DNA from: Bacteroides stercoris ATCC 43183
GTDB taxonomy: Bacteria > Bacteroidota > Bacteroidia > Bacteroidales > Bacteroidaceae
NCBI RefSeq assembly: GCF_025147325.1
Contig: NZ_CP102262.1
Coordinates: forward strand, 3,906,001-3,970,000
Direction: 5' to 3'
DNA length: 64,000 nucleotides
The translations under genes were made by a program, and so were the position numbers. The notes under the pieces are model-generated. The model was not told where the DNA came from. It saw nothing but the letters and a program-made list of their open reading frames with translations, and made no database searches. Within the stretch, counting starts at the first letter, position 1, and each line of letters opens with the position of its first letter. Positions 10,195 to 48,270 of this stretch are shown here, one piece after another.

Positions 10195-12825
10195 ATGAAC
10201 AAAATAGTATCCACCATCATTTTCTTCAGTCTTGCAGCCACTGCACAGGCGCAAACGGCCGGAGAAGCCACCATCAGGCTCACCGACACAACGCTGATGC
10301 ACGAAATGCGTGCAACTCCCTCGCCGCTGGACGGCGCTGAAATCAGCGACCGTGCCGTGTCCTTCCAATGGCCGCTGCCGGCAGGTCTCAACATCCTGCG
10401 AAGCGGACTGGACGGTGCGGAAGAGAACACCCCCAAAAAAGAAACAGACAAAAGCAAGCTACGCTACTTCCTGCGCTACTCGCAAACTCCGGCATTCAAG
10501 CCGAAAGCGACCGTACAAGCCGATACGCGCTGGCCGTTCTTCAACCCCAAACAGGATTTGGCTCCGGGCACATGGTACTGGCAATACGGCTATGTTACGG
10601 ACGGAAAGACCGAATGGAGCGATACGCTGCAATTTACGGTAAAGAACAATCCCCGGAAGTTCTGCCCGCCCGCACTGGATGCCGTACTTAAGAACCTGCC
10701 TGCCCACCACCCCCGCGTATGGCTCGACAGGGACGAATGGGACGGTTTCATAAAGCGCAGCGAGGGCAAAACCGAACGCAAGACTTACCTCAAACGTGCC
10801 GACAAAGTACTTGCCACCCCGATGAAGTCGGTAAACGACATTAACTCGGACCTGGCAAAAGGACTGACCAACGAGGTGCAGAAAAATGCCATGCTCACCC
10901 GCGAAAGCCGCCGCATCATCGACAGCGAAGAAGCGAATACCGACGTACTTATCCGCGCCTACCTGCTCACCAAAGACCGCCGCTATGCCGACGAAGCCGT
11001 GAAGCGCGTCAAGGAGATGGCCACCTGGGGAGACAACAAAAACGTAGTGGGCGACTTCAACGAAGCCACCCTGCTCTCGCTCTGCTCCATGGCATACGAC
11101 GCACTGTACGATGTTCTGGACAATGCCACGCGCAGATTCCTGCTGAACGAAATAAAGGAATTCGGCAACAGCATGTACATGCACGACATCAACCGCCTGG
11201 AAAACCACATCGCCGACAACCATGTGTGGCAGATGACTTTCCGCATCCTCACCATGGCAGCCTTTACCGTTTACGGTGAACTGCCCGAAGCCGATGCGTG
11301 GACGGACTATTGCTATAACCTGTGGCTCGCCCGCTTCCCCGGTCTGAACAAGGACGGAGCCTGGCACAACGGCGACTCCTACTTCCACGTCAACATCCGT
11401 ACACTTGTGGAAGTGCCCTATTTCTATACCCGCCTCACCGGCTTCAACTATTTCTCCGACCCCTGGTATCAGGGAAATGCCCTGTACGTCATCTACCAGC
11501 AGCCGCCATTCTCCAAATCGGGCGGCAACGGCAGCTCGCACCAGAAGATACTTACCCCGAGCGGTACGCGTGTTGGCTACGCCGATGCTCTGGCGCGTAT
11601 GACCGGCAATACATTTGCCGCAGATTACGTGCGCCACATCAGCGCCCGCCAGCCCGACATACTCGAACAGGGAAGCACCTCGAAAGCCGGCGGCCTTGCA
11701 TGGTTCCGCCTGCAATGCGACAAGCCCTTGCCGGACGGGCCGGGTTTGAAAGACCTTCCCATGGGACATGTATTCCCGCAGAGCGGACTGGCCTCGTTCT
11801 CCACCAACCTGGACGATACCCGCAAAAGCGCCATGCTCAGCTTCCGCAGCAGTCCTTACGGCAGTACCTCGCACGCCATAGCCAACCAGAATGCTTTCAA
11901 TACTTTCTGGAACGGCCAGTCGCTCTTTTACAGTAGCGGACACCATACCAGCTTTACCGACATACACGGCGTTTACTGCCACCGCGCCACCCGCGCCCAC
12001 AACACCATTCTGGTGAACGGCATGGGACAACGCATCGGAACGGAAGGTTACGGCTGGATTCCCCGTTACTATGTCAGCGACAATATCAGCTATGTGGCAG
12101 GCGATGCTTCCAATGCTTACGGAAAGGTTATCTCGCCGCTCTGGTTGCTGCGCGGCAAACAGAGCAACCTGGAATTTTCTCCTGAAAACGGTTGGGACGA
12201 TACCAGCCTGAAAATCTTCCGCCGCCACATCGTAACTTTAGGCAAAAGCGGTTATTCCTTTATATACGACGAGCTGGAAGCCGAAGAGCCCGTGACCTGG
12301 AGCTACCAGCTACATACGGTTACCAACCCTATGAATGTGAACAAGACCCGGGAATACGTACACATACGGGCCACCAGCAAGGACGGTGCGTCCGATGCCT
12401 ATCTCTTCTCCTCCGGAACGCTGGAGACGGATACGACCTCCCGGTTCTTCGTACCTGCCGTCAACTGGCTGCGTGCCGATGAAAAGGGGCACTTCGCACC
12501 CTATCCCAACCACTGGCACTTCACCGCAACATCGGACAAGCAGAAAGTGTACCGCTTCGCTACAATTGTGTACACACATGCCAAAGAAAATGATGCGGAA
12601 AACGCACAAGCCGCTCCCCGCAAACTGAAAGACGGTAGTATCCAAATCGGTGACTGGAATATCAAAGCAAACATATCCACTGCCGGAAAGCCTTCTTTCG
12701 AGGTACGCAACACGCGCAAAGACTGCGACGCAAGCATCAGTTACAAGGATTACGGTGCAACCGTGATACACGATAACGGCAAAAAGACCGAGTTGAAAGA
12801 CGAAGTTCCCGAACTGGAAATCTAA
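10195..12825 (+). CDS. heparinase II/III-type polysaccharide lyase A (DUF4962 type)
   Basis: The 876-residue secreted enzyme has signal peptide MNKIVSTIIFFSLAATAQA, a beta-sandwich N-terminal segment (to about 155), an alpha-toroid middle and a heparinase II/III C-terminal beta domain. Putative beta-elimination residues are Asn342-His343 in ENHIADNHVW, Tyr396 in WHNGDSYF, and His560 in TSHAIANQN, with RAHNTILVN at 600-608. By family it should cleave the uronic-acid linkage of a glycosaminoglycan-like chain, leaving a 4,5-unsaturated uronate. It is a close paralogue of lyase B (20397-23015). An in-frame ATG at 10186 would add three residues; the start at 10195 gives the cleaner signal peptide and matches lyase B. 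Substrate unknown. Confidence 0.85.
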   Translation: MNKIVSTIIFFSLAATAQAQTAGEATIRLTDTTLMHEMRATPSPLDGAEISDRAVSFQWPLPAGLNILRSGLDGAEENTPKKETDKSKLRYFLRYSQTPAFKPKATVQADTRWPFFNPKQDLAPGTWYWQYGYVTDGKTEWSDTLQFTVKNNPRKFCPPALDAVLKNLPAHHPRVWLDRDEWDGFIKRSEGKTERKTYLKRADKVLATPMKSVNDINSDLAKGLTNEVQKNAMLTRESRRIIDSEEANTDVLIRAYLLTKDRRYADEAVKRVKEMATWGDNKNVVGDFNEATLLSLCSMAYDALYDVLDNATRRFLLNEIKEFGNSMYMHDINRLENHIADNHVWQMTFRILTMAAFTVYGELPEADAWTDYCYNLWLARFPGLNKDGAWHNGDSYFHVNIRTLVEVPYFYTRLTGFNYFSDPWYQGNALYVIYQQPPFSKSGGNGSSHQKILTPSGTRVGYADALARMTGNTFAADYVRHISARQPDILEQGSTSKAGGLAWFRLQCDKPLPDGPGLKDLPMGHVFPQSGLASFSTNLDDTRKSAMLSFRSSPYGSTSHAIANQNAFNTFWNGQSLFYSSGHHTSFTDIHGVYCHRATRAHNTILVNGMGQRIGTEGYGWIPRYYVSDNISYVAGDASNAYGKVISPLWLLRGKQSNLEFSPENGWDDTSLKIFRRHIVTLGKSGYSFIYDELEAEEPVTWSYQLHTVTNPMNVNKTREYVHIRATSKDGASDAYLFSSGTLETDTTSRFFVPAVNWLRADEKGHFAPYPNHWHFTATSDKQKVYRFATIVYTHAKENDAENAQAAPRKLKDGSIQIGDWNIKANISTAGKPSFEVRNTRKDCDASISYKDYGATVIHDNGKKTELKDEVPELEI

Positions 12826-12849: not shown

Positions 12850-15069
12850 ATGAAGAAACTGCTACTGCTCACAATCGCAATCTGGTACCTGACAGCCGGC
12901 TGTTACAGCCAGACAGACTGGAAAAGTTTCATGTCCCGGCAGGACATGACCTGGACCCGCCTGCCCCAAACCTGGTACGAAGCCCCCTTCATGGGAAACG
13001 GCAGCATGGGTTCCTATATCTGCAAAGAACCCGGAAAAAACGCCATACGGGTAGATGTAGGCAACAGTATGGTACACGACCACCGCACAGACGATGCGAG
13101 CATCTATGGAAGAGGCCGGCTGCTTATCGGTTATTTTCTCCTGCATCCCGTGGGAGAAATAAAATCCGGCGACCTGAGGCTGGACTTATGGAACGCTGAA
13201 ACCACCGGGTGTATCCGTACCACCCGGGGAGAGATAAAGCTAAGAGCCTGTGTCACTTCCGAGAGTCCCTATATTCTGGTCGAAGCCGAAGCTACGGCAG
13301 GCGAAAAGGAGTTCACCTGGAAATTCTATCCGGAAAACACGGATTCGCCGAGGCAGTTGAATGCAATCCGGAAGGGTAACAAGAACCACCTCAAAAAAGA
13401 CTATGTGTCCAATCCCGCCCCGCAACTGTCCGCACGCAATGGGCTGAACCTCTGCTGGCAGCCCCTGCTTGCCGGCGGCGGTACTGCCACAGCCTGGAAA
13501 GAGATAAGGAAAGAGAATACAAGCACGCTTATCGTAAGCAACGCACATTCCTTTCCCGGAACAGAGGCTTTGCAAAAGGCGGAAACGGCACTGGCAAGCC
13601 TGCAGGAAGCCGACCTGCCCGTGCTCCGGAAAGTACACCGGGAATGGTGGCATAACTACTATCCGCAAAGTTTCGTGAACCTTCCCGACAAGAAGATGGA
13701 GAATTTCTACTGGGCGCAGATGTACAAGCTGGCATCGGCCACCCGCACCGGCGGCGGACTGCTCGACAACAGCGGTCCCTGGCAAGTGCTGACTCCCTGG
13801 CCCAATGCCTGGTGGAACCTGAATGTGCAACTGAGCTACTGGTCCGTATACCCATCCAACCGGCTGGAACTGGGCATGCCGCTGGTGGATGCGATAGGAA
13901 ACAATCTGGATAACCTGATAAACAACGTTCCCGAACCCTACCGGAAAGATGCCGCCGCACTGCCCGTAGCCACCGACTTTACCCTGACGGGAGCAACGGT
14001 GAATGTTCCCGGAACCGAAAAGAAAGCCCAGGTAGGCAACCTGACGTGGATTTGCCATAACCTCTGGCTACAATACCGCTTCAGCATGGACGAATCGATA
14101 TTGAGGAATACCCTGTACCCTACACTGAGACGGGCCGTCAATTTCTATCTGCCTTTCCTGACAGAAGACAAATCGGGCAAGCTTCATTTGAAAAGAACCT
14201 ATTCTCCGGAGTACGGTACTGCCGAAGACTGCAACTACGACATCGCCCTGTTGCGCTGGGGATGCAATACATTGCTCGAGGCAAGCAGGATTCTATCTGT
14301 CGATGACGAGCTGATACCCCGCTGGAAACAAGTTGCAGAATACCTGACCGACTACCCGCAAGACGAAAACGGCATGATGATAGGCAAGGATGTACCTTTC
14401 AGCCGCTCGCACCGCCACTACTCGCACCTGCTGATGTTCTATCCGCTCTACCTGTTGAATGCCGAGCAGAACGGCAGCAAGGAACTTATGGAAAAATCCG
14501 TAGAGCACTGGCACAGCCTGCCGGGCAATATCCTTGGATATACTTATACGGGGGCTTCTTCGCTGTATGCGGCATTCGGCGAGGGAGACAAGGCGCTGGA
14601 GAAACTCAACGGCCTGTTTGCCCGCACCCTGCGCCCCAACACCATGTATATGGAAAGCGGACCGGTTATCGAGACCCCGTTGTCGGGCGCACAGTGCATA
14701 CACGATATGTTGCTGCAAAGCTGGGGCGGAAAGATACGTGTGTTCCCTGCCGTACCTTCCCAATGGAAAGATGTACAGTTCAAGGACCTGAGAACCGAAG
14801 GCGCTTTCCTCGTATCCGCTGTGCGGAAAGGCGGAAAGACAAGCTTCATCCGTATCAAAAGCCTTGCCGGAGAACCGTGTATCCTACGCACCGATATGGC
14901 AAATCCGGTTGTAAAGGCAGGCAATGCCACATTGACCCTGCAAAAAGAGGGTGAGTACCTATTGGATTTAAAGAAAGGAGAAAGCGTAATCCTGACTGCC
15001 GCAGGAGGGAATATTCCCGTCATAAGTCCTATCGACGGAGAAGGAGAAAATTATTTCGGACTGAAGTAG
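12850..15069 (+). CDS. GH95-like secreted glycosidase
   Basis: The 739-residue protein has a signal peptide (cut near AGCYS; a lipoprotein is possible since Cys is close) and GH95-like layout: an N-terminal beta domain beginning PLGNGSMG-like (APFMGNGSMGSYI), an (alpha/alpha)6 barrel and a C-terminal beta domain. Recognisable GH95 landmarks are NLNVQLSYW (Asn323, Asn325), SPEYGT (Glu454, position of the general acid), HRHYSHLLMFYPL, and VIETPLSGAQ...DMLLQSW. At the last site GH95 fucosidases carry Asp (IDGNFG); here Glu608 sits in that place. GH95 members act on alpha-L-fucose or alpha-L-galactose; given the altered site, specificity is open. Last gene of the sulfatase operon; a strong terminator follows at 15128. 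Confidence 0.72.
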   Translation: MKKLLLLTIAIWYLTAGCYSQTDWKSFMSRQDMTWTRLPQTWYEAPFMGNGSMGSYICKEPGKNAIRVDVGNSMVHDHRTDDASIYGRGRLLIGYFLLHPVGEIKSGDLRLDLWNAETTGCIRTTRGEIKLRACVTSESPYILVEAEATAGEKEFTWKFYPENTDSPRQLNAIRKGNKNHLKKDYVSNPAPQLSARNGLNLCWQPLLAGGGTATAWKEIRKENTSTLIVSNAHSFPGTEALQKAETALASLQEADLPVLRKVHREWWHNYYPQSFVNLPDKKMENFYWAQMYKLASATRTGGGLLDNSGPWQVLTPWPNAWWNLNVQLSYWSVYPSNRLELGMPLVDAIGNNLDNLINNVPEPYRKDAAALPVATDFTLTGATVNVPGTEKKAQVGNLTWICHNLWLQYRFSMDESILRNTLYPTLRRAVNFYLPFLTEDKSGKLHLKRTYSPEYGTAEDCNYDIALLRWGCNTLLEASRILSVDDELIPRWKQVAEYLTDYPQDENGMMIGKDVPFSRSHRHYSHLLMFYPLYLLNAEQNGSKELMEKSVEHWHSLPGNILGYTYTGASSLYAAFGEGDKALEKLNGLFARTLRPNTMYMESGPVIETPLSGAQCIHDMLLQSWGGKIRVFPAVPSQWKDVQFKDLRTEGAFLVSAVRKGGKTSFIRIKSLAGEPCILRTDMANPVVKAGNATLTLQKEGEYLLDLKKGESVILTAAGGNIPVISPIDGEGENYFGLK

Positions 15070-15343: not shown

Positions 15344-18300
15344 ATGAAAAACATCCGAAGAATCGTCCTTGTAATGGCCTGCTTACTCTGCATACCGGGT
15401 ATTCACGCTCAAGATTTCACCGTTACCGGAAAAGTCATAGACAATACCGGGCTGGAAGTTATCGGCGCCAACATTTCCATAAAAGGAAGTACGGGAGTTG
15501 GAACAATCACCAATATCGACGGGCAATACACCCTCAAAGTCAATAACCCTGCCAAAGATGTACTGGTAATTTCCTATATAGGAATGAGAACACAGGAAGT
15601 AGCGGTAAAAGGACAAAAACAAATCAATGTGACTTTGCAAGAAGACAGTAAGATTCTGGACGAAGTTGTTGTCATCGGTTACGGAACAAGCAAACGAAGC
15701 GATCTGACCGGTTCCGTAGTGTCTGTGAAAAATGAAGACCTGATGCAAACCCCTACTTCTGACGTAGCACAAGCACTGGCAGGACGCGTGGCAGGTGTAC
15801 AAGTCATGCAAAGCGAAGGCGAACCGGGAGCATCTGTATCGATCCGTGTACGTGGCGGCATCTCCATTACCCAAAGTAACGAACCGCTTTACGTTATTGA
15901 CGGATTCCCCAGCGAAGACGGCATGAACAGCCTGGATCCCGGTGAAATCGAAACCATAGACATCCTGAAAGACGCTTCTTCCACTGCTATTTACGGAGCA
16001 CGCGGAGCCAACGGCGTAGTAGTGATTACCACAAAGAAAGGCGCTAAGGACGCTTCTAAAATGAATGTCAGTTTTAACAGTTATATAGGTATACGGAAGG
16101 TAAGCAAAAAACTCGATGTATTGTCATCCAAGGAGTATGTATTGCTCGATTACGAACGCAATCTCGCCTTATATGGCGAAAGTGGCGTACGGCGTTTCCA
16201 GAATGCTTACGGCTCTTTCCGGGAGATAGACGAGAATTATGGAAACCGGGAAGGTGTAGACTGGCAGGAAGAAGCATTCGGACGAGTAACAACCTCCCAG
16301 AATTACCGCATAAATATTTCCGGCGGGAATAAAGAACTGAAATACAGCCTTTCCTATAACTACGTAAAAGATTTGGGCGCCATGATAAAAAGCGGTATGG
16401 ATCGCCATAACATATCCTTTAACATCTCACACAAAGCTTCCAGCCGCTTTCAGGCAAACGCACGCCTCAATTACGATGAATCGAAAACATACGGCATGGG
16501 AACTTCAGAAGGTAATAACCGCTTCAATAAAATGGAGCATATATTACAATACCGTCCTGTCAACTCATTGAGCGGTAATGACCGCGACTTGATAACGGGA
16601 GACGATGACCTGATTGACGATGAATCCAATCCCATGCAAAGTCCCATCCTCTCCGCACAAGAAGAGACTAAAATCCGAAAGATACGCAGTATGCAGGCAA
16701 ACGGTGGTTTTACTTTCAATTTCACCAAACGGTTCAGCTTCCGTAACAGTACCGGTATGCGTTATCAAATTTCACGTCAGGATATATTCTACGGAGAAAA
16801 GTCCGTTACCGGCAAACGCTCCAGTATCAACGGAAACATTGCCTACAACGAAAACGGCAGTTTCCAGACCTCCAATGTATTCACTTACGATTATAGAGGC
16901 AAGATTCATAAACTGAATGTAATGGCGGGTCAAGAGTGGATTTCACGCTGGGCCAAATACTTAGGAGCGTATGCTACCAATTTCCCGAATAATGACATCG
17001 GACTGAACGACATGAACTTGGGAACTCCGAGCGAAATACGCTCCAGCGTCAACGACGACGACCGTTTGCTCTCTTTCTTTGCACGTGCCAATTATAACTT
17101 CCGGGAAAAGTACCTGCTGACAGCCACAGTGCGTACCGACGGTTCTTCCAAATTTGCCGACCATAACAAGTGGGGCTTTTTCCCGTCTGTTTCCGTTGCA
17201 TGGCGCATGAGCGAAGAAGAATTCGTCAAAAAACTGAATCTTTTCTCCGATCTGAAACTCAGAATAGGTTACGGTTTGGCCGGCAATAACCGCGTAGCAA
17301 GCTATACATCGCTTGATTTACTAACCTCCACCCGCTATCCTATCGGTGAATCACTGTCACCGGGATACGCCACATCCGGAATTCCCAGCGCCGACCTTAA
17401 ATGGGAATCGAACAAAACATTGAATATCGGCATAGATATGGGATTTTTGGAACAACGGATAATTGTTTCTCCGGAGTTTTACCTCAACAAAAGCTCCAAC
17501 CTGCTACTGAATTCACGTGTACCGACCTCTTCCGGACACAAAACCATGATGCGGAATATCGGAAAGACCAGCAACATCGGTTTTGATCTCAGCGTTACTT
17601 CCGTCAATATACAGAAGAAAAACTTTACATGGACCACAAACTTCAACATATCTCACAACCGCAACAAGATTGAAGCTCTATCCGGAGAACGGTATTTCCT
17701 TGAAGAAGCCCGTTTCGGTTATGACCAGAAAACACATAAAATCGAGGTGGGCAAGCCCATCGGACAATTCTATGGTTACAAAACGTCAGGATTATATCAG
17801 ATAGAGGACTTTGATTATGATGCCAAAAACCAGACATATACCCTGAAAGAAGGTGTTCCTTACATGAGCGGCACGTTTAACCGCAACGACGTCCGCCCCG
17901 GTATGTGGAAATTTGAAGACCGGAATGGAGACAAAATCATCGACGACTCGGACATGACTGTCATCGGCAATGCCAATCCCGACTTCTACGGTGGTCTGAA
18001 CAACCAATTCAAATACAAAGAATGGGATTTTAGCCTCTTCTTCACTTTCAGCTATGGCGGTGAGGTGCTGAATGCAACCAAACTGACCAACACCAAAACA
18101 GCCACCACCAATTACAGCGTATTGGACATAGCCAATAGCAGCAACCGCTGGATGACTGTCAACAGTGAAGGACAACCGATAACCGACCCGGCAGAAATGG
18201 CAGCAATCAACGCCGGAAAAACAGTTGCATGTATATATGATATGGAAGCAGGCGACAAATACATACACTCATGGGCAGTAGAAGACGCCTCTTTCCTAAG

Positions 18301-18529
18301 ACTGAGCAATCTAAGCCTGGGATATACTTTCGACCGTAAAAAGCTACGTAAGTTTAACGTTCAAAGTCTCCGCCTTTACTTTACAGGCAGTAACCTCTTC
18401 GTATGGACACCCTATAGCGGCTTTGATCCCGAAGTATCCACCAAAGGCAACAACCTGACACCGGGTGTGGACTATGGCGCTTATCCCCGTAACCGCTCGT
18501 ATGTATTCGGACTTAACATCACTTTCTAA
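15344..18529 (+). CDS. SusC-type TonB-dependent glycan transporter 1
   Basis: The 1061-residue outer-membrane protein has a signal peptide (to about 22, GIHAQ), a carboxypeptidase-D-regulatory-like beta domain (about 26-100), the TonB box region DEVVVIGYGTSKRSDLTGSV, a plug domain (about 115-230; IRVRGGISITQ, YVIDGFP, SSTAIYGARGANGVVVITTKKG) and a 22-strand barrel ending RSYVFGLNITF. It imports oligosaccharides produced at the surface together with the SusD lipoprotein, whose gene starts 13 bases downstream. It is preceded by the 32-nt regulatory element shared with the sulfatase operon. The exact ligand is unknown but should be the product of the lyases encoded here. Confidence 0.95.
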   Translation: MKNIRRIVLVMACLLCIPGIHAQDFTVTGKVIDNTGLEVIGANISIKGSTGVGTITNIDGQYTLKVNNPAKDVLVISYIGMRTQEVAVKGQKQINVTLQEDSKILDEVVVIGYGTSKRSDLTGSVVSVKNEDLMQTPTSDVAQALAGRVAGVQVMQSEGEPGASVSIRVRGGISITQSNEPLYVIDGFPSEDGMNSLDPGEIETIDILKDASSTAIYGARGANGVVVITTKKGAKDASKMNVSFNSYIGIRKVSKKLDVLSSKEYVLLDYERNLALYGESGVRRFQNAYGSFREIDENYGNREGVDWQEEAFGRVTTSQNYRINISGGNKELKYSLSYNYVKDLGAMIKSGMDRHNISFNISHKASSRFQANARLNYDESKTYGMGTSEGNNRFNKMEHILQYRPVNSLSGNDRDLITGDDDLIDDESNPMQSPILSAQEETKIRKIRSMQANGGFTFNFTKRFSFRNSTGMRYQISRQDIFYGEKSVTGKRSSINGNIAYNENGSFQTSNVFTYDYRGKIHKLNVMAGQEWISRWAKYLGAYATNFPNNDIGLNDMNLGTPSEIRSSVNDDDRLLSFFARANYNFREKYLLTATVRTDGSSKFADHNKWGFFPSVSVAWRMSEEEFVKKLNLFSDLKLRIGYGLAGNNRVASYTSLDLLTSTRYPIGESLSPGYATSGIPSADLKWESNKTLNIGIDMGFLEQRIIVSPEFYLNKSSNLLLNSRVPTSSGHKTMMRNIGKTSNIGFDLSVTSVNIQKKNFTWTTNFNISHNRNKIEALSGERYFLEEARFGYDQKTHKIEVGKPIGQFYGYKTSGLYQIEDFDYDAKNQTYTLKEGVPYMSGTFNRNDVRPGMWKFEDRNGDKIIDDSDMTVIGNANPDFYGGLNNQFKYKEWDFSLFFTFSYGGEVLNATKLTNTKTATTNYSVLDIANSSNRWMTVNSEGQPITDPAEMAAINAGKTVACIYDMEAGDKYIHSWAVEDASFLRLSNLSLGYTFDRKKLRKFNVQSLRLYFTGSNLFVWTPYSGFDPEVSTKGNNLTPGVDYGAYPRNRSYVFGLNITF

Positions 18530-18542
18530 ACAACATACAACC

Positions 18543-20228
18543 ATGAAAAGAAATAATACGTTATATACTATCTGCTTCTTATTGGCAAGCATGTGCATCA
18601 ACACTGCCTGCGAAGATACCTTAAGCGAATCTCCCGATTCATCTTACGAACGTAAAGACTTCTTCATTACCGATAAACAGGCTGACATGGCGGTATTGGG
18701 AATCTACAGCGTACTGCCCACTATTTATGGAGATAAGGACGGCATGGCTTTTCCCTGCTCCGATGATACATACTATGCCAGCGGAACCAATAGCGACAAC
18801 ACCCGCCGTGATATCTGCCATTATACCATTCGTCCCGCCAACACATGGGTAGACGCGGTATGGGTAGGAAAATACCAGCAAATCAACCGTGCCAATTATA
18901 CCATTGCGGGTATCGAGAATATGGACGGATATAGTGAAAGCGAAGTATTGCAAGCGTTCGTAGCCGAAGCGAAATTCTTACGTGCACAAGCTGCGTTCGA
19001 TTTGGTGCGCTATTGGGGTGATGTACCTTTTAGTACAAACTATACAACGGATTATGAGGCTTCGTATAAACCGCGTACAGAACGCGAAGAAATATACGAA
19101 CAAATCATCAAAGATCTCGATTTCGCTAAAGAACACCTGAAATGGGCCAATGACAGTTCTTCCCCCGAACGTGCCACCCAAGGAAGCGCACGTGCTTTGC
19201 TGATGCGCGTGTTGCTGACCCGCGCCGGATACAGCCTGCAACTGGACGGCAAAACGACCCGCCCTGGCGAAACGCTGCGCACCCGATATTTTAATTCGGT
19301 TATCAGCGAGTGGGAAGCTTTTCAATCCGAAAAAGGACAGTATCACGGTTTTTATAACGGCGGATACGAAGAATTGTTCAAAAGTTTCTCTGCCGGCATT
19401 CTGAACAACCGGGAAAGCCTGTTTGAAGTATCTTTCTACTATCCCGGCACTAAAGGGTATTGGGGAACCTATATCGGTATATTTGCAGACGCACCGGCAA
19501 ATTCGGCAGACGCGAACAAAGTAATGGGACGTGCAGCGGTTTCCTACCGCGCCATACCCGAATGGTATGAGTTCTATGAGGCACAGGATACACGCCGGGA
19601 TGTCGCCATCGGAAGGCATAGCTGGACATGGAATAAAGAAACCGGCATGCACGAAAAGACAGACTTATCAAAGAAAAAAGGAAACTGGACTCCAGCAAAA
19701 TGGAGACGTGAATGGATGCCTGCCGGCTATAAAGACCCCAACTATACAGACGTCAACTATTGCATGTTGCGCTATGCGGATGTCGTACTGATGGCGGCTG
19801 AAGCTTATAATGAAACAGGCAATACAGCCAAAGCCTGGGAACTTCTGAACAGTGTACGCAAGCGTGCCGGTGCCACAGAAATTACTGCCCGCAACTATAA
19901 AAGTTTGTTCAAGACCCATGAACTTATGAAAAAGCTCGACTTCATCGATGATAACGACGATGCCGGCAAATTCCGTACCGCCCTTTATTGGGAGCGTGGT
20001 TTTGAACTGGCTTTCGAAGGACAGCGTAAGTTCGATCTTATCCGCTGGGGTATATTAAAGGAAGCACTGACTCTATTCGGAGAAAATACGGCAGTCAACA
20101 CTTCTACCAATACCGCCTACCCTGCCTATCAAAACTTCAAGAAAGGAAAGCACGAACTGTTTCCGATTCCTGAAGATGAACTACAGATTAATGGTAAACT
20201 GGAAGGAGTAAATAACCCTGGATATTAA
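18543..20228 (+). CDS. SusD-type glycan-binding lipoprotein 1
   Basis: The 561-residue precursor has lipobox NTAC (Cys23) and the SusD/RagB helical TPR-like fold: YNTIAGIEN-like region near residue 120 (NYTIAGIENMDGYSES), FLRAQAAFDLVRYWGDVPF, the RGSARALLMRVLLTRAGYS helix, and the C-terminal ALYWERGFELAFEGQRKFDLIRWG and ELFPIPEDELQING. It caps SusC1 and captures glycan on the cell surface. I start it at 18543 because the ATG at 18465 lies inside susC1 and lacks a signal peptide. No SusE/F-like gene follows; a lyase with its own promoter comes next. Confidence 0.95.
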   Translation: MKRNNTLYTICFLLASMCINTACEDTLSESPDSSYERKDFFITDKQADMAVLGIYSVLPTIYGDKDGMAFPCSDDTYYASGTNSDNTRRDICHYTIRPANTWVDAVWVGKYQQINRANYTIAGIENMDGYSESEVLQAFVAEAKFLRAQAAFDLVRYWGDVPFSTNYTTDYEASYKPRTEREEIYEQIIKDLDFAKEHLKWANDSSSPERATQGSARALLMRVLLTRAGYSLQLDGKTTRPGETLRTRYFNSVISEWEAFQSEKGQYHGFYNGGYEELFKSFSAGILNNRESLFEVSFYYPGTKGYWGTYIGIFADAPANSADANKVMGRAAVSYRAIPEWYEFYEAQDTRRDVAIGRHSWTWNKETGMHEKTDLSKKKGNWTPAKWRREWMPAGYKDPNYTDVNYCMLRYADVVLMAAEAYNETGNTAKAWELLNSVRKRAGATEITARNYKSLFKTHELMKKLDFIDDNDDAGKFRTALYWERGFELAFEGQRKFDLIRWGILKEALTLFGENTAVNTSTNTAYPAYQNFKKGKHELFPIPEDELQINGKLEGVNNPGY

Positions 20229-20333
20229 CGCTATAGGTGTTTATACAAGCGATTATTAAACAAAATTGTAAGAAACCCGAACGAAATTAAAAGGAAAATC
20301 ACCAATGTCAAACAATTGATAGACAAGGCAAAA

Positions 20334-20363
20334 ATTGCTACTGCAATAAATACTATAGCTTTG
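20334..20363 (+). promoter_or_regulatory. promoter of lyase B
   Basis: TTG at 20335-20337 and a perfect -7 element TAGCTTTG at 20356-20363, about 18-19 bases apart, fit the Bacteroides vegetative promoter. The predicted start of transcription near 20370 leaves a leader of about 27 bases before the ATG at 20397 and rules out the in-frame ATG at 20316. Confidence 0.5.
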
Positions 20364-20396
20364 CCGACAGAGAAAAATATTCAAAACAATATATTT

Positions 20397-23015: not shown

Positions 23016-23028
23016 TAAACAAAAAAAT

Positions 23029-23808: not shown

Positions 23809-23822
23809 TATCCGAAAAAGTC

Positions 23823-24833: not shown

Positions 24834-24875
24834 GAAACAACAATAATTATATAACACTTTAATTTTTCTAAGATT

Positions 24876-33753: not shown

Positions 33754-33761
33754 TACCTTTG
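33754..33761 (+). promoter_or_regulatory. -7 element of lyase D
   Basis: TACCTTTG is an exact TAnnTTTG match 40 bases before the ATG at 33801. It lies inside the 5' extension of the open frame, which supports the 33801 start. A CAACAAT box at 33707 resembles the one in front of the GH88 gene but sits 12 bases further from the -7 element. Confidence 0.5.
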
Positions 33762-33800
33762 CATCGGTTAGCTTCGAATCATTTTAAGACCAATATAATT

Positions 33801-36422: not shown

Positions 36423-39400
36423 ATGAAAAACAAAAAAAATCACATGAAACGAATGCTAATGCTTTCGTTATTGACTAGTGCTTGTTGCATTCACAGTTAT
36501 GCAACAACAAATAAGTCTACCTTAGTGAGAGAAACGGAATCCGTTGAGAGCATCTTGCAGAACAGAAGAATCTCAGGCGTGGTAAATGACAATTTCGGTC
36601 CTGTTGTCGGTGCTAATGTATCCATAAAAGGAACTACCATTGGTAGCATTACCGATATGGACGGAAAATTTAGTTTTGACGCTCCTGAAAATGGAATACT
36701 TGTCGTATCTTTTATCGGATATACAACTCAAGAAATTCCAGTAAAAGGTAAAAACGAGTTTATTATTACATTGAAAGAAGATACTGAGCTGTTAGACGAA
36801 GTTGTAGTTGTGGGATATGGAACCCAGAAAAAGGTTAACTTGTCAGGTTCTGTATCAGCAATTGAAGGAGAGCAGATTGCAAGTAAGCCTTCTACCGATG
36901 TCCTTTCTGCATTACAAGGAGAAATGCCCGGTGTTACCATTACACGCGGTGGCGGACAACCGGGTGCGGAAGGAACCGGAGTTCAAATTCGAGGTTACTC
37001 TTCTGTCAACGATACTAAAGCTTTGGTATTAATTGATGGAGTAGAGGGTGATATGTCCATGTTAAATGCTGATGACATCGAATCTATTTCCGTATTGAAG
37101 GATGCAGCATCCTGCGCTATTTATGGAGCACGGGCAGCAGCAGGTGTAATTTTGGTTACAACCAAAAACGGTACGGAAGGAAAGCCCAAAATCTCATACA
37201 ATGGTTATGTATCATTCAATATTCCTGGTAATATGCCGGAACGTGTTCCTGCATGGGAAGAACAAGATTTCATTAATAGGACGAGAATTCCAAGGGGTGG
37301 CCCGGAGTGGAATGCCGAGAAATCATCATGGATTGGCAATCCCAACTTCAATTATCGTCCATTAGGCAATGGACGTTGGGACTTGTTCGACAGCGTAGAC
37401 TGGTTAGGCGAAGGTCTTAAAAACAGTACTCTGCAGCACAATCATTCCGTATCGGTCAGTGGCGGAACAGATAAAATAAATTACATGTTATCTGCCAACT
37501 ATTACTATAAAAACGGTTTATTGAAATATGGTCCGGACGACTATGAACGATACAATTTATTAGCCAAATTAAATGCTAAACTCAATAAATATGTTGACTT
37601 AGGAGTTAATGTACAATATAATGCCGATGACATGTCCGAAAACTCTTTCGGTGCAGGAGAAATCTTCAGACTGTTATATGAAAACCGTGGCCGGCAACCC
37701 ATTTACCAACCGGAAGCAGAGAATTATCCCAGCCCTTATAATGGCGACTTACAAGATAATCCTATTGATATTATGAAAAACGGTGGGGAAAAATCAACTG
37801 AATACGAGTCATATACAGGTAAAGCACAATTGACTATCAAGGATTTTATCAAGAATCTACGCATCAATTTAAGCGCTTCGCGCCGTGCCGGATACTATCA
37901 TCAGGAGAGTTATAAGAGAACATTGACTTATTATAATTATGTAGGTGATGTACGTAGAACAACCAATTCTCCTAACTCACTATACAAATCTCAATATAAA
38001 GAATACCACGACTTGCTGGAAGCTACCATAAATTATAGTTTCAACCTAAAGGAGAAGCACAACTTTAATATATTGGCAGGTAGTTCATACGAAAATTATC
38101 GGATGAATCAAATCAAAGGAACAGCCAACAACATGATATCCAATGATTTTTTCTCTTTCAACTATTATGATACCTCCAAAGCTACCAATAGCATTTTAGC
38201 CGATCAGATTGACACTTGGGCCATGATGTCTTACTTCGGTCGTATAAACTACAACTTCAAGGAAAGATATTTGCTGGAAGCCAATGTACGTTATGACGGC
38301 AGTTCACGTCTTGCCCCCTCACACCGTTGGAAAGCTTTTCCTTCTGTTTCTGCAGCATGGCGTGTTAACGAAGAAAAGTGGTTTAACCTTGATTGGGTCA
38401 GCAATTTAAAACTCAGAATGTCTTGGGGACAGCTTGGTAATGGAGCCGTTTTGGGATTATACGACTATATTCCCTTGATAACCTATTCACAGAAAGATAT
38501 ACCGGCAAGCTATCAAGGTGAAAAATGGCTTTACCAAAGCAGCATGGCATCTGAAGACAAAACATGGGAAACCGTAGAAACTACTAATATCGGACTTGAT
38601 TTCGGACTTCTCAATAACCGCCTAACCGGTAGTTTCGAATATTACTGGAAGTTTAATAACGATATGTTATCCGCACTTCAATTGCCTCATCAGATCGGAA
38701 TTAATGTTCCAAATATGAATGTAGGTAAACTCAAAACATGGGGTTGGGACTTTAATATCAACTGGAGAGACCAAATTAAAGACTTCAGCTATCAAATCGG
38801 TTTCAATATCTCAGATAGCAAAAATGAACTGTTAAAATATGATGGAGCCAGCGTAGTAAACGCCGGTGTTGTAAAATTGTTGGAAGGCTATCCTATCAAT
38901 ACTATCTGGGGATATCAAACCGATGGTTTCTGGTCCAGCCGTGAAGAATATTTGCAATATAAAGCCGATCATCCAGGATATGAATCATTCCAAGATGGTA
39001 TTATCAGCGGTGGAGACGTAAAATATGTTGCCCAAGGAAAACCTGATCATAAGATTGGAGTAGGAAACGGCAGCCCCGAAGATTCCGGTGATTTGGTTAT
39101 GTTAGGAAACACAACACCCCGTTTCCTCTATGGTATAAACTTAGCGGCACAATGGAAAGGTTTTGACTTGTCACTCATATTCCAGGGAGTAGGAAAACGC
39201 GACCTGGTATTGAATGGAAGAATGTTTCCGATAGCCAATGACGCTGAAATGCCCTGGACTATTCACCGTGATTATTGGACAGAAGAAAATCCTAATGCCT
39301 ATTGGCCGCGTCTTTATCAATATAAAGGAGATGACTTCAATTCTAAACCAGCTGACAGATGGATACAGGATGCATCTTATTTCCGTTTGAAAAATGTAAC

Positions 39401-39587
39401 ATTAGGATATACAATTCCTATTTCTAAGAAGTATATGGAAAAATTAAGGGTTTATGTAACCGGACAAGATTTATTCGAAATTTCCGATATACTGGAAGTG
39501 ATGGATCCGGAAGTCGAAAGCAACGCCAACAGAGGTATGTATCCTTTCTTCCGCAGTTGGACTTTAGGTTTAAATGTTACATTCTAA
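36423..39587 (+). CDS. SusC-type TonB-dependent glycan transporter 2
   Basis: The 1054-residue outer-membrane transporter has a signal peptide (HSYA end, about 28; an in-frame ATG at 36444 is an alternative start), a carboxypeptidase-D-like domain (about 50-125), the TonB-box segment DEVVVVGYGTQKKVNLSGSV, a plug (IRGYSSVNDTKALVLIDGVEG; AASCAIYGARAAAGVILVTTKNG) and a barrel ending RSWTLGLNVTF. It differs substantially from SusC1 and probably imports a different product size or form. Its DNA, with susD2 and the following lipoprotein gene, is visibly more AT-rich than the lyase genes on both sides. susD2 begins 12 bases downstream. Confidence 0.95.
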   Translation: MKNKKNHMKRMLMLSLLTSACCIHSYATTNKSTLVRETESVESILQNRRISGVVNDNFGPVVGANVSIKGTTIGSITDMDGKFSFDAPENGILVVSFIGYTTQEIPVKGKNEFIITLKEDTELLDEVVVVGYGTQKKVNLSGSVSAIEGEQIASKPSTDVLSALQGEMPGVTITRGGGQPGAEGTGVQIRGYSSVNDTKALVLIDGVEGDMSMLNADDIESISVLKDAASCAIYGARAAAGVILVTTKNGTEGKPKISYNGYVSFNIPGNMPERVPAWEEQDFINRTRIPRGGPEWNAEKSSWIGNPNFNYRPLGNGRWDLFDSVDWLGEGLKNSTLQHNHSVSVSGGTDKINYMLSANYYYKNGLLKYGPDDYERYNLLAKLNAKLNKYVDLGVNVQYNADDMSENSFGAGEIFRLLYENRGRQPIYQPEAENYPSPYNGDLQDNPIDIMKNGGEKSTEYESYTGKAQLTIKDFIKNLRINLSASRRAGYYHQESYKRTLTYYNYVGDVRRTTNSPNSLYKSQYKEYHDLLEATINYSFNLKEKHNFNILAGSSYENYRMNQIKGTANNMISNDFFSFNYYDTSKATNSILADQIDTWAMMSYFGRINYNFKERYLLEANVRYDGSSRLAPSHRWKAFPSVSAAWRVNEEKWFNLDWVSNLKLRMSWGQLGNGAVLGLYDYIPLITYSQKDIPASYQGEKWLYQSSMASEDKTWETVETTNIGLDFGLLNNRLTGSFEYYWKFNNDMLSALQLPHQIGINVPNMNVGKLKTWGWDFNINWRDQIKDFSYQIGFNISDSKNELLKYDGASVVNAGVVKLLEGYPINTIWGYQTDGFWSSREEYLQYKADHPGYESFQDGIISGGDVKYVAQGKPDHKIGVGNGSPEDSGDLVMLGNTTPRFLYGINLAAQWKGFDLSLIFQGVGKRDLVLNGRMFPIANDAEMPWTIHRDYWTEENPNAYWPRLYQYKGDDFNSKPADRWIQDASYFRLKNVTLGYTIPISKKYMEKLRVYVTGQDLFEISDILEVMDPEVESNANRGMYPFFRSWTLGLNVTF

Positions 39588-39599
39588 AAATACACTACG

Positions 39600-41279
39600 A
39601 TGAAAAATATATTTTTACTGCTTATCGGTGCTCTATTAGTCAGCAGTTGTTCATTAGACAGAGAACCGGAAACGACATTAAGCGATGTCAAATTTTGGAG
39701 AAGTGAGGCCGACTTGAGAGGTGCTTGTAATCGTTTATATATTGATCTGCCGGGCTTCTTAACGGGTAGAGGACATGATTTGCGTTCGGAAGAATTAATA
39801 GGAAATACTCCCGATGAGATTTCTTCCGGAAATCGCAGTATCCCGGAAACTGATAAAGAGTGGACTGATCCTTATAACAAGATAGGCGTCTGCAACAACA
39901 TCATTGTCAAGGGAGAGAATATAGATATCAACGAAACGACAAAAAACCGCTGGTTAGCAGAAGCACATTTTTTTCGTGCCTTCTATTATTTTGACTTGGT
40001 AAAGAAATATGGCGACGTGCCACTTATTCTGAAAGTCTTCAACAATACCAGTGACCCAGAAATAAAGAAAGGCAGGGATTCACGCGAAGCTGTCATACAA
40101 CAATGTTATAAAGATTTGGATTTTGCAGCACAATGGCTTCCCGATATTGATAAACTGGCAGATAATGCAAACTGGGGACGTGTATCCCGCTCTGCTGCAC
40201 TGGCAATGATTGTACGTATCGGACTCTATGAGGGCACTTATATCAAGTATCACAATTTAACGGAAGGAGACAGCCAAAGTCACTTGAAAAAGTCTATCGA
40301 TGCAGCTGAGACTATGTTTAAGGAAAATAAACACGACCTTTATCCTGACTTCCAGAAATTGTTTTATTTTGATGGCGAAGGACGCCAAAATAAAGAAAAC
40401 ATCTTTGTAAAAGTGTATGGACCAAATGGAGTTAACAATGCAATTACATGGCACAACCAATGTAGCTCAAAAGCCGGACAAGCAACCATAACACGCCAAA
40501 TGATTGATAACTTTTTATACATCGACGGATTACCCAGAAAAGTTTCGGTTCATTATCAAGAAGAAACCAATTTTGATGACATATTCAGTAATCGTGATCC
40601 CCGTTTGGAAATGACCGTATTTTCCTACAAAGAAATATCTTTCAAGAATGCGGAATACTTACCCTTTGATAACGTAAACCACAGCGGCTATGGGTATCCC
40701 ATCAAGAAAGGGTATATGCAGGAAGAGTATGATACTAATTCTAAAGAAACCGTTGATAAAATGCATATTCGTTATGCCGAAATCTTGATTTCATATGCTG
40801 AAGCACTTTATGAATATAATGGAAAAATCAGTGATGACCAATTGGAAGCTACTGTCAACTATATTAGAAAACGTTCCGGATTTAATACGAAACTAACTAA
40901 TGGATTCGTATCTGATCATCAATTGAACATGTTAGACGAAATTCGAAGAGAGCGTATTGTCGAATTCATTGATGAAAACATACACTATGATGACATAATT
41001 CGTTGGAAAACAGCAGAAAAAGTACTTCCCCAAACAATGTTGGGTATTCTGTTCAATCCCGATGAAAGTGCCAAAACTGCCAAAGAGCTGGGTTATAAAT
41101 TTACAGATGCAAATGGTGCTTACAACGAAGTGAAAGTGTACGATCAAGCTAATATTTATGTAATAGAGGAAGCTGACAGTCGTAAATTCGATCCTCAGCG
41201 TGACTATTTATATCCTATTCCAAGTTACGAGATTGCTACATCTAATGGAAATATTAAACAAAATCCATATTGGAAATAA
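39600..41279 (+). CDS. SusD-type glycan-binding lipoprotein 2
   Basis: The 559-residue precursor has lipobox SSC (Cys17; SCSLDREP). SusD/RagB landmarks are ACNRLYIDLPGF, WLAEAHFFRAFYYFDLVKKYGDVPL, SRSAALAMIVRIGLYEGTY, MHIRYAEILISYAEALYEYNG and DEIRRERIVEFIDENIHYDDIIRW, with the final YLYPIPSYEI...NPYWK. It forms the surface lid of SusC2. The lipoprotein gene in the SusE position starts 21 bases downstream, suggesting a classic susC-susD-binding-protein arrangement. Confidence 0.95.
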   Translation: MKNIFLLLIGALLVSSCSLDREPETTLSDVKFWRSEADLRGACNRLYIDLPGFLTGRGHDLRSEELIGNTPDEISSGNRSIPETDKEWTDPYNKIGVCNNIIVKGENIDINETTKNRWLAEAHFFRAFYYFDLVKKYGDVPLILKVFNNTSDPEIKKGRDSREAVIQQCYKDLDFAAQWLPDIDKLADNANWGRVSRSAALAMIVRIGLYEGTYIKYHNLTEGDSQSHLKKSIDAAETMFKENKHDLYPDFQKLFYFDGEGRQNKENIFVKVYGPNGVNNAITWHNQCSSKAGQATITRQMIDNFLYIDGLPRKVSVHYQEETNFDDIFSNRDPRLEMTVFSYKEISFKNAEYLPFDNVNHSGYGYPIKKGYMQEEYDTNSKETVDKMHIRYAEILISYAEALYEYNGKISDDQLEATVNYIRKRSGFNTKLTNGFVSDHQLNMLDEIRRERIVEFIDENIHYDDIIRWKTAEKVLPQTMLGILFNPDESAKTAKELGYKFTDANGAYNEVKVYDQANIYVIEEADSRKFDPQRDYLYPIPSYEIATSNGNIKQNPYWK

Positions 41280-41300: not shown

Positions 41301-41876
41301 ATGAAAACATTAAAAAATAAAATATCCTTTTTGCTACTGTTTACAATGTGTTGCCTCTTAGGCAGTTGTGATAAATCGCATGAAGAATGGGAAGATGGAG
41401 ACCCAGCATTGGCTCATGTTTACTATTATTGTTTTGAAAAATGGGGAACTATCCCGGTAGGGAATGATGTTACTTACACAGTAAAGCAAGGAGAGACACT
41501 TGCCATACCTACACAATTCTACAGCAAGTTTGTCCGTTCATATAGTCCCGAAGTATATTATTATACTTCTGCGATTTCCGACAAAACACCCCTGATATGC
41601 GGAACAGACTATATTGTCACTGATAAAGACGGTAATGAATTAACCCCGGATGCATCAGGAGCCTATAAGATGATTTGGCCAAATGCAAAAGGAGGAGTAC
41701 AAAACATATATATAAAAGCTTTGAACGGTAAAAAAGGGTCTTTCCATGTACTGACTTTTGATCCTAACAAAAAAATGGATGTAACTGATGTCACAACCAC
41801 TTCCATTATTAAAACGGATGAATATGAAGTACGGGCAATGTCTGAAAATTATCGTGTTACAGTAATCATAGAATAA
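41301..41876 (+). CDS. small lipoprotein in SusE position (putative glycan-binding)
   Basis: The 191-residue precursor has lipobox LGSC (Cys23) followed by DKSHEEWEDGDP, an acidic surface-export-type tail. The mature part looks all-beta, with many Tyr (VYYYCFEKWG, SPEVYYYTS) and an ending typical of an immunoglobulin-like module. I do not recognise the family. Its place directly after susD2 is where surface glycan-binding proteins are encoded, so that role is inferred from position. It is much shorter than usual SusE/F proteins and could hold only one or two domains. Terminator at 41965. Confidence 0.6.
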   Translation: MKTLKNKISFLLLFTMCCLLGSCDKSHEEWEDGDPALAHVYYYCFEKWGTIPVGNDVTYTVKQGETLAIPTQFYSKFVRSYSPEVYYYTSAISDKTPLICGTDYIVTDKDGNELTPDASGAYKMIWPNAKGGVQNIYIKALNGKKGSFHVLTFDPNKKMDVTDVTTTSIIKTDEYEVRAMSENYRVTVIIE

Positions 41877-45238: not shown

Positions 45239-45252
45239 TATTTCATATTTAT

Positions 45253-45789: not shown

Positions 45790-48270
45790 ATGAAAACAAG
45801 ACTCGCAGTAATCGGGATATTATGCGTGTTGTTAATACCTGCATATGCCAATAATCCGTTACGAAAAGCTCCCTATCCGCAACAAGACAATATTATCTAT
45901 TTGAACCCAGCACCATTATTGGTACCGCCAAGTATGAAACAGTCGGATTATCTACAATTCAACCTCTCGCAGGACAAGAACTTTAAAGGGGACAATGACA
46001 TATTATCCAAGCCAGTGCCCTGGTGCATGTTCAATCCGCATAAAATATTGGACACAGGACTCTGGTACTGGCGTTTCCGTTCGGTCAGCAAGACCGGTGA
46101 AGAGATGCCTTGGAGCAAGACATACAGTTTTACTGTAGAAGAAAGCACTCCACGGTTTGCAACTCCTCCGTTCGAAGTATTCCTGAACAACATTCCTAAA
46201 AACAGTCCGCGTATCTATTGCTTTCTGAATGACCGGTTGGAGGATGCACGGAAAAATGTACGTTCCAATCCGGAATTTGAAGTGATGATTGACGATGCCC
46301 GCAGTGCGCTTGCCATGGACTTCAGCACCGATACGCAACCGTACAAGCATGTTTTTGCCATGTCTGAAAACTTTGATAAACTGAACACTGCCTATCAGAT
46401 GTTACAGTACAATCTTTATGTAGAGAAAATGCTGGCCAACGTACGTTGTCTGCTGAAACAGAATCCGACAAAGAATTTTATGGGCAACGACTTCAAGGCT
46501 GGCGAACTGGTCTACTTATTGGCGGCTACTTATGAGAATTTTTATGACCGCTTTACGGCTCAGGAACGCCAGAGGATAGAAGAAATTGTGATGAAGGTAC
46601 TGGACTTCTATTATAAGGACCGCCTTTTGGGACGTACTGAGAATATGTTTTTCGATGAACACATCTGGCAATTCGAAATACGCCGTTTCTTACAAGCCTC
46701 GTTAGTGATGTATGACAAATATCCTGCTGCAAAAGAATACCTGGAATACTATTATGAACTTTGGAATACACGCGGACCGGGTACAGGTTTCAATCGCGAC
46801 GGGGCATGGCACAATGGCGCCAACTATTTCAGCGCCAACGCTGTCAGTCTGTGTTATCTTCCCACACTATTCAGTTATCTCACCGGATTTGATTTTCTGC
46901 AACATCCCTGGTATAAAAATGCAGGAATCGGTACTGCGTATACCTGGCTTCCGGGTTCCTTAAGTGCCGGATTCGGCGACGGGCACGAAAAAAGGAACGG
47001 CAAGCCTTTGCGTATCCGAAGTGCCTTTGCCGATTTTCTGGCCCGCACCACCAATGACCCGTATGCCGCCTGGTATTCAGCCGCTAACAACCGATACAAT
47101 ACCGAATCTGAAACCCGCCTTTACCGTCTTGCCTCCGGCAAGCAACGTCCTGCCGATTGCGAACTGCCGGCAGATGCGCCAAAGGCTGTCTGGTTCAGAG
47201 ATTGCGGTGAAATGGTAGCCAACAGCAATTTGAGAGATTTAAAAAAGAATGTCAGCCTAAGTTTCCGTTCCAGCCCTTTCGGTTCGGGCAACCACACGCA
47301 CTCCAATCAGAATGCGTTCAATCTGCATTATGGCGGGGAAGCGGTTTACCATGCCGTAGGCCATTATATGAATTTTTCCGATCCACATAATCTGCTGTCT
47401 TATCGCAATACCCGCGCCCATAACACCCTACTAATAAACGGTATCGGCCAACCTTTTACGCCCGATGCCTACGGATACATTGTGCGCATGTTCAACGGCG
47501 ACAATATCTCTTATGCCTTGGGGGACGCCTCGGCGGCATACTGTGGCATCAGTGACATCCGCCTGTGGAAAAACAGTTTCAAGAAGTATCACCTGACACA
47601 AACTCCAGAAAACGGTTTCGGTGAAACGCCATTGAAGAAATACCGCCGTCATATTTTTCTGTTGCATCCCAACAAGGTGGTTATCTACGACGAACTGGAA
47701 GCCAGTGAAAAGGTACATTGGGACTGGTTGCTGCATAGTCCTGTAAAATTCGATATAAATCCAGTCACAGCCACGCTCACAACCGTAAACAAAGAAAAAG
47801 GATTCACTTCTGTTGCCCAACTGTTTAGTGGGCAAAAAGCGACTATTACCCAGACGGATAAATTTGCAGCGCCTCCGAATGACGCAGACGCCCAGCGTGG
47901 TGAGGACTTCACTGCTCCCTGGTCGCTTACTGCAAGCTTCGGACCGAGCAAGAGCAACCGCATACTTACCATTATTCAGGTTGAAGCCGATGGTATGCAG
48001 GCAGTACAAATCATGAAAGAAGGCAATGCTTTCCGATGCGGTGAATGGACTATCGAAGCCGAACTGGATGCAAAGCGTCCGGGGCGTCTGTACATCCGTA
48101 ATAACCGGAACAATGCAGTATTCAGTTATGGAAACAAAAAACCGGAAATAAATGGAGAGACTTATTCGTGTAAAGAGAAAGACGCTTCTGTCCTGTTTGA
48201 TAGTATTAATGGAAAATGGGAAACTCAGGAAATGAGTGACCAGAGAATACAGACAATGGGAAAATGGTAA
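45790..48270 (+). CDS. heparinase II/III-type lyase E (DUF4962 type, altered active-site Asn)
   Basis: The 826-residue secreted lyase (signal peptide to about PAYA) is the closest relative of lyase D, with the same order of N-terminal beta domain, helical toroid and C-terminal beta domain. WHNGANYF keeps the putative catalytic Tyr and GNHTHSNQN keeps the His of the third motif. The second motif reads ENMFFDEHIW where the other four have E(N/T)HIxDNHxW: Glu290 replaces the presumed charge-neutralising Asn and Met replaces the first His, while His291 remains. It may act on a different uronate epimer or have lost activity. It is separated from lyase D by the SusCD2 genes and the HU/VirE unit. 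Confidence 0.85.
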   Translation: MKTRLAVIGILCVLLIPAYANNPLRKAPYPQQDNIIYLNPAPLLVPPSMKQSDYLQFNLSQDKNFKGDNDILSKPVPWCMFNPHKILDTGLWYWRFRSVSKTGEEMPWSKTYSFTVEESTPRFATPPFEVFLNNIPKNSPRIYCFLNDRLEDARKNVRSNPEFEVMIDDARSALAMDFSTDTQPYKHVFAMSENFDKLNTAYQMLQYNLYVEKMLANVRCLLKQNPTKNFMGNDFKAGELVYLLAATYENFYDRFTAQERQRIEEIVMKVLDFYYKDRLLGRTENMFFDEHIWQFEIRRFLQASLVMYDKYPAAKEYLEYYYELWNTRGPGTGFNRDGAWHNGANYFSANAVSLCYLPTLFSYLTGFDFLQHPWYKNAGIGTAYTWLPGSLSAGFGDGHEKRNGKPLRIRSAFADFLARTTNDPYAAWYSAANNRYNTESETRLYRLASGKQRPADCELPADAPKAVWFRDCGEMVANSNLRDLKKNVSLSFRSSPFGSGNHTHSNQNAFNLHYGGEAVYHAVGHYMNFSDPHNLLSYRNTRAHNTLLINGIGQPFTPDAYGYIVRMFNGDNISYALGDASAAYCGISDIRLWKNSFKKYHLTQTPENGFGETPLKKYRRHIFLLHPNKVVIYDELEASEKVHWDWLLHSPVKFDINPVTATLTTVNKEKGFTSVAQLFSGQKATITQTDKFAAPPNDADAQRGEDFTAPWSLTASFGPSKSNRILTIIQVEADGMQAVQIMKEGNAFRCGEWTIEAELDAKRPGRLYIRNNRNNAVFSYGNKKPEINGETYSCKEKDASVLFDSINGKWETQEMSDQRIQTMGKW

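Follow-up and report, generated by a model that had tools for sequence, protein, structure and literature searches.

A two-module locus with five PL15-type lyases in Bacteroides stercoris, a candidate system for heparosan- or heparan-type chains

Closest described systems and layout of the locus

The nearest described relatives of the lyases considered here are the exolytic heparinases of subfamily PL15_2, including BT4652 and the crystallised BIexoHep (6LJA/6LJL), which according to the accessible text of its description releases disaccharides from reducing ends (PMC7904915). The PL33_1 heparosanases of B. stercoris and B. clarus provide a second point of reference; in the available part of the report, their activity was detected on heparosan only (PMC11848413). 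A third is the heparin/heparan sulfate (HS) PUL of Bacteroides thetaiotaomicron (BT4652-BT4675). The locus described here lies in a stretch of 64,000 nucleotides (hereafter the window) in the 4.0 Mb, single-contig genome of Bacteroides stercoris ATCC 43183, and comprises the following features:

8762..10150, + strand: S1, sulfatase (Sulfatase and SGSH_C domains; Pfam)
10186..12825, + strand: lyase A, PL15-type, A/B clade (PF16332, 8e-204; 49% identity to BIexoHep)
12850..15069, + strand: GH95-like protein (Pfam GH95 catalytic domain, 5e-35; GH95 structures at 2e-23 or weaker)
15344..20228, + strand: SusC1 (15344-18529) and SusD1 (18465-20228) (Pfam)
20316..23015, + strand: lyase B, PL15-type, A/B clade (PF16332, 2e-193; 47% identity to BIexoHep)
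22972..26594, + strand: DUF3575-DUF6562a-DUF6562b cassette, fimbrillin-like at least in DUF6562a (Pfam; gene order in relatives; weak DUF6562a model)
26721..29279, + strand: lyase C, with a lipobox-like signal (PF16332, 6e-71; lipobox pattern)
29421..33452, + strand: HTCS hybrid two-component regulator (Pfam)
33675..36305, + strand: lyase D (PF16332, 1e-80)
36423..41279, + strand: SusC2 (36423-39587) and SusD2 (39600-41279) (Pfam)
41301..41876, + strand: 191-aa protein with a lipobox-like signal, found after SusD2 in relatives too (no Pfam match)
45790..48270, + strand: lyase E (PF16332, 2e-80), with Glu290 and Asn501 at the positions of BIexoHep N336 and S554 (residues; model)
48516..49925, + strand: GH29 alpha-L-fucosidase-like protein (Pfam, 7e-92)
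50120..50809, + strand: DUF6250 protein (Pfam)
50972..52240, + strand: GH88 unsaturated glucuronyl hydrolase-like protein (3WIW at 3e-117, next structures at 4e-45)
52257..54221, + strand: lyase F, PL33-type (8r73, 4e-154; B. clarus orthologue, 86%)

The start of lyase A at 10195 in the initial annotation is its second in-frame ATG; the reading frames of lyases B and D open with TTG, and the true starts are likely a later ATG in B and the methionine at residue 43 in D. A SusC/SusD pair, a sensor-regulator, uronate lyases and GH88 stand together in a single locus, the combination that marks a PUL for heparin/HS or heparosan. The B. thetaiotaomicron PUL shares SusC/D, HTCS, GH88, a sulfatase and a PL15-type lyase with it; in contrast to that PUL, the window locus contains a PL33 enzyme, the C/D/E lyases, fucosidases, the fimbrillin-like cassette and a second SusC/D pair, and no PL12 or PL13 gene was found within 8762-54221 of the window.

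The locus is flanked by a DNA topoisomerase gene (6227-8509) and by methylmalonyl-CoA mutase genes (54471-58518), as it is in genome G155 and in B. cutis; the topoisomerase/mutase site is recurrent for such loci, and in other relatives one of the two genes borders the locus. The segment 42031-45238 is an insert consisting of a 202-aa ORF on the - strand and a BT4734-like/VapE/DUF3874 gene, and the regions of B. gallinarum and B. propionicigenes contain copies that are 85-92% identical; the identification of the insert as plasmid DNA was rejected, since a search of a plasmid collection in 'near' mode gave no match. Upstream, 1486-3312 encodes a protein with Calycin_like, DUF5018 and PCMD domains; PCMD (PF13201) has seven matches in the genome and no bearing on the locus.

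Lyase families, gene order and distribution

Lyases A to E are long + strand ORFs, each with a DUF4962 (PF16332) and a Hepar_II_III_C domain by Pfam; the PF16332 E-values, from 8e-204 to 6e-71, exclude chance matches. The two subgroups proposed in the initial annotation, with D and E as the closest pair, are borne out by BLASTP identities of 66% for A/B, 67% for D/E, 47% for C/D and C/E, and 30-32% between the groups. A phmmer search matched A-D to 6LJA with E-values from 6e-108 to 3e-272 (C and D match BIexoHep at about 1e-107), which places these four in PL15 by homology; E joins the family through its BLASTP matches to A-D and its structural model (pLDDT 86.5), whose nearest fold is 6LJL (TM 0.85), followed by Atu3025 (TM 0.71). 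A and B align with BIexoHep over almost their full length, and the identity of C, D and E to it is about 30%; a protein of B. clarus shares 87% identity with lyase D. Alginate was rejected as the target, since the matches of A-D to the alginate lyase Atu3025 are far weaker than those to the exoheparinase, the same holds for the model of E, and the neighbouring genes are of heparinoid type. Searching the whole genome for DUF4962 recovered the A-E loci and two weak matches, a pair of HepB-type heparinase II proteins.

Duplicates and contained fragments were removed before the PL15-type sequences were compared; the resulting set of 109 (108 from the window and the fetched loci, plus BIexoHep) splits into a BIexoHep clade of 11, an A/B clade of 24, a C/D/E clade of 73 and the outlier L087. 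A first tree, of 91 sequences, supported A/B at 1.0 and C/D/E at 0.82. The equivalents of the BIexoHep residues H337, Y390 and H555 are present in all of A-E; Y390 and H555 occur in 109/109 sequences and H337 in 108/109, the remaining one being a fragment with a gap. C/D/E is a distinct clade that has kept its catalytic residues, and no characterised member of it turned up in the searchable literature; the Vibrio alginate lyases, proposed as PL15_3 in the accessible part of the source, are separate from it (PMC11921355).

Lyase F, the sixth superfamily member that the initial annotation had also recognised, shows only Hepar_II_III_C in Pfam and no DUF4962 match; it belongs to PL33 by homology to PL33-type structures named BtPL33 (8r73, E-value 4e-154 over 619 residues) and is the sole PL33 match of its genome. 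Three other proteins in 158 genomes of the genus are at least 77% identical to F, and the single PL33 match of the B. clarus genome (G127; 86%) lies inside that species' version of the locus. F is probably an orthologue of the published PL33_1 heparosanases, and cleavage of heparosan by F is predicted; no difference from these enzymes was seen in a comparison made through the B. clarus protein. Chondroitin sulfate (CS) was rejected as the target, since PL33_1 of B. stercoris and B. clarus, as far as the available text of the report goes, acted only on heparosan (PMC11848413); one review, in its accessible part, connects Bacteroides PL33 with CS degradation.

Gene order was compared across 22 regions of relatives, from 21 genomes. 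The succession of A/B-type lyase, DUF3575, DUF6562a, DUF6562b and C-type lyase recurs in 14 of these regions; the cassette stands between lyase genes in 17, and five regions lack this arrangement. Three of the 17 (B. clarus, B. propionicigenes and B. gallinarum) have a D-type gene (51-52%) in first place, and in B. gallinarum a sulfatase gene intervenes in the lyase-cassette-lyase order. The cassette is possibly a glycan-binding fimbria or adhesin; the top matches of the weak DUF6562a model (pLDDT 59) are Mfa2, Mfa3, Mfa4 and other Bacteroidales adhesins at TM 0.29-0.39, beside unrelated pilins. Genome G155 shows the order HTCS-GH88-S1-A-cassette-C-PL12-SusC/D between the mutase and topoisomerase genes, with flanking genes as in the window. 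A second module, consisting of D and/or E, SusC2, SusD2, the 191-aa protein, PL12 and GH88, is found in B. oleiciplenus, whose listed genes include neither an A/B nor a C gene, and occurs whole or in part in L015, L018, L021 and G136. The window carries both modules end to end, the second without PL12 and with PL33 after GH88; in B. gallinarum the order GH29-GH95-PL12-DUF6250-GH88-PL33 is found, and the B. clarus locus has additional GH95 and GH29 genes. The cluster apparently represents two sugar-degrading operons merged end to end; a single machine with five tuned enzymes was rejected, since both modules also occur separately in relatives. The expansion, regarded as unusual in the initial annotation, is real and high but not unique: genome G130 contains five PL15-type genes within about 47 kb as well as an E orthologue, and G013 contains four within about 11 kb. 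This E orthologue (L097:8073, 87% identical) lies far from the main locus of G130, in a 20-kb slice where the other searched locus genes were not recognised.

Occurrence was tabulated in 37 rows representing 36 genomes (L016 and G226 share a contig, judged by its length, and overlapping slices inflate the counts for G699 and G158); the slices are short, and absences from them are weak evidence. A/B lyases occur in 22 rows, C in 21 of those 22, GH88 in 22 and S1 in 16; PL12 is found in 11 of the 37, not always inside the locus (the window's own PL12 belongs to a neighbouring locus), and PL33 in three; GH29 or GH95 reaches at least 50% identity in eight. Scoring up to five candidates in each of 158 genomes of the genus gave matches to D in 54. 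For E, 25 of the 158 had a match at 1e-150 or better, and nine of 61 genomes of the genus of G013 had one at 1e-60; in an order-wide sample with two candidates scored per genome, eight of 393 genomes matched at 1e-60, and only G000 and G013 exceeded 1,000 bits. The C/D/E clade looks centred on Bacteroides and its near relatives, plus a few Bacteroidales MAGs. A lipobox is found in C, in 13/26 C-clade proteins and in 7/7 of C's outer group, compared to 5/37 for D/E, 3/24 for A/B and 3/10 for BIexoHep-type proteins; these calls come from a simple pattern, not a trained predictor, and some are surely wrong.

Substrate contacts and the predicted polymer

All five lyases share their domain layout, catalytic residues and nearest fold with the PL15_2 exolytic heparinases, and differ from them in residues that contact the substrate in BIexoHep. 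R332, R579 and K755, conserved in 11/11 members of the BIexoHep clade, are replaced by His, His and Leu in 24/24 A/B sequences; A/B lyases keep R230, R233, N336, Q340 and R648 (the three arginines in 24/24), with R332, R579, K755 and R757 altered in every member. Most of the basic contacts are gone in C/D/E, which by the contacts listed for BIexoHep would fall outside PL15_2: R579 is Tyr in 73/73, R648 is Arg in 0/73 (Lys in three), R332 is Arg in 2/73, and a gap replaces the R230/R233 segment in 73/73, a loss that is less sure since phmmer aligns the same segment of D differently. The median net charge, computed without the first 25 residues, is -3 in the BIexoHep clade, +2 in A/B and -18 in C/D/E. 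Since most basic contacts are lost and the C/D/E proteins are acidic, a substrate of low sulfation is predicted, and C/D/E may have shifted away from highly sulfated chains; the differing alignment of the R230/R233 segment and the persistence of Lys at K755 in 24/73 C/D/E sequences count against it. The earlier suggestion that each lyase recognises a different context would fit the clade-specific active sites.

With a probability of roughly 0.55, the locus is a PUL whose target is a chain of heparosan or heparan type, built from 1,4-linked uronate and GlcNAc; sulfation of this chain is probably low, and in this lineage it may carry fucose. The initial annotation considered the natural substrate not obvious; its class can be deduced from the similarity of A and B to a characterised exoheparinase, the orthology of F to heparosanases, the affinity of GH88 to 3WIW (presumably the heparin-disaccharide enzyme of Pedobacter heparinus), the 81% identity of S1 to the gene that, in L083 and L089, adjoins a 98% BIexoHep homologue, and the PL12 genes in the operons of several relatives. 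The low-sulfation component follows from the contact losses and the charge of C/D/E. Against the heparosan/heparan reading stand the inconstancy of PL12 and PL33 among related loci, the sulfatase and fucosidases that plain heparosan would make superfluous, and the enzyme BXexoHep, inactive on the polysaccharides tested in the accessible part of its description (PMC7904915). BXexoHep is perhaps A/B-like if, on the present reading, the value of 47.79% similarity to BIexoHep belongs to it; the accessible text lists five values for seven proteins (PMC7904915). No report of fucosylated heparosan was found in the searchable literature. If the reading is true, gut Bacteroides would possess a glycosaminoglycan (GAG)-type locus adapted to heparosan-like chains with little or no sulfate, and the C/D/E clade would offer candidate tools for low-sulfate heparinoids. 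Heparosan-like chains occur in bacterial capsules and in host tissue.

It is improbable that this is an ordinary second heparin/HS locus, in which A-E would be exoheparinases that overlap in part and prefer different degrees of sulfation, with the fucosidases directed at another glycan. Such a role would agree with the S1 sulfatase, with the BIexoHep-clade and BT4652-type genes that operate in HS loci, and with the arginines R230, R233 and R648 kept throughout A/B; furthermore, the DUF4962 search of the whole genome found no BIexoHep-type gene other than A and B, and therefore A or B may fill the role of BT4652. At the organism level, growth of B. clarus on heparin (PMC9141863) and assimilation of heparin/HS by B. 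stercoris HJ-15 (PMC9067506) are recorded in the available parts of two reports. Yet the genome has heparin-type enzymes elsewhere: PL12-type genes with a BT4661-like protein form an HS-type locus at 1.48-1.50 Mb, away from the lyase cluster, a further PL12-type gene lies directly downstream of the locus, and one PF14099 protein (presumably of the heparinase I family) accompanies the two HepB. The changed contacts of A/B, the still more extensive losses in C/D/E, and the heparosanase activity of F's orthologues, as given in the accessible text (PMC11848413), also argue against a second HS locus. As a separate observation, 61352-64000 (and L036) belongs to an opposite-strand locus with a PL12 heparinase III-like protein, a GH88-like protein, SusC/SusD, HTCS and an aldose epimerase.

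A fucosylated uronate polymer other than a GAG, such as a capsule from bacteria or a glycan from plants or algae, is a quite improbable target. The GH29 and GH95 genes of the window, their counterparts in eight of the 37 rows and the additional copies in B. clarus would suit it, but fucosidases are missing from most of the related loci examined, GH88 (22/37) and heparinase-type PL12 (11/37) are more frequent, and F, A and B point to heparinoids. For the GH95-like protein, the search for catalytic residues in an alignment to GH95 structures yielded nothing firm.

Homology, catalytic residues, gene order and the two-module structure are observed features of the heparosan/heparan-type locus; for the pathway built on them, all activities, locations and the order of steps are predicted. 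The HTCS would sense a degradation product; the putative lipoprotein lyase C and the fimbrillin-like proteins would capture the chain at the surface and shorten it, and the two SusC/SusD pairs would import the pieces. F would cut unsulfated stretches endo-processively, A and B would take disaccharides from reducing ends, and D and E would cut further contexts. The S1 sulfatase would remove sulfate and GH29/GH95 fucose, and GH88 would split the unsaturated disaccharide. The locus had been put forward as an undescribed degradation system; no publication on it or on the C/D/E clade was found in searches that reached few subscription papers, which is weak evidence of novelty, but the locus is more aptly seen as a heparan/heparosan locus in an uncharacterised variant form.

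A coupled residue pair in E-type lyases

Lyase E and ten relatives combine N336E with S554N (BIexoHep numbering), which sets them further apart from PL15_2. The residues at positions 336/554 are E/N in 11 of the 109 sequences, N/S in 96, N/G in one and gap/S in one; the two substitutions never occur apart, and all 11 E/N sequences retain H337, Q340, Y390 and H555. Among the 109 sequences the E/N members sit in three places: a group of eight that includes the window's E (support 0.999), the single sequence L075_8437, and the pair L105_7934 and L017_1928. At least three changes are needed on a tree of 75 rows, built with a quick LG+G4 model and with both motif regions left out, and a single origin was rejected, since placing all members in one clade gave an AU p of 2e-7 on the same quick tree; the three changes could be one gain and two losses.

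From its motif, N336 may be the counterpart of N238 in PL33, an invariant Asn that contacts the carboxylate and is the proposed enolate stabiliser; in the accessible text, N238A was without quantifiable activity (PMC11848413). With Glu at the presumed same place, E-type proteins could have lost the enolate-stabilising Asn and become binding proteins instead of lyases, a possibility that is on balance unlikely: the catalytic residues are intact in all 11, drift would not yield two changes that never separate, and the equivalence of N336 and N238 is itself deduced from the motif. Speculatively, and with a probability that is rather low, C/D/E would form a new subfamily of lyases directed at an undescribed heparosan-like polymer that is low in sulfate and possibly carries fucose. 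Within this subfamily the coupled N336E/S554N, whether it arose several times or was gained and later lost, would remodel the site that binds the carboxylate, and E-type enzymes would thereby either attack a uronate of different chemistry (one neutralised at C6, for instance) or catalyse another reaction at C5. The recurrence of the pair makes the role of the superfamily's conserved Asn testable with natural paralogues.
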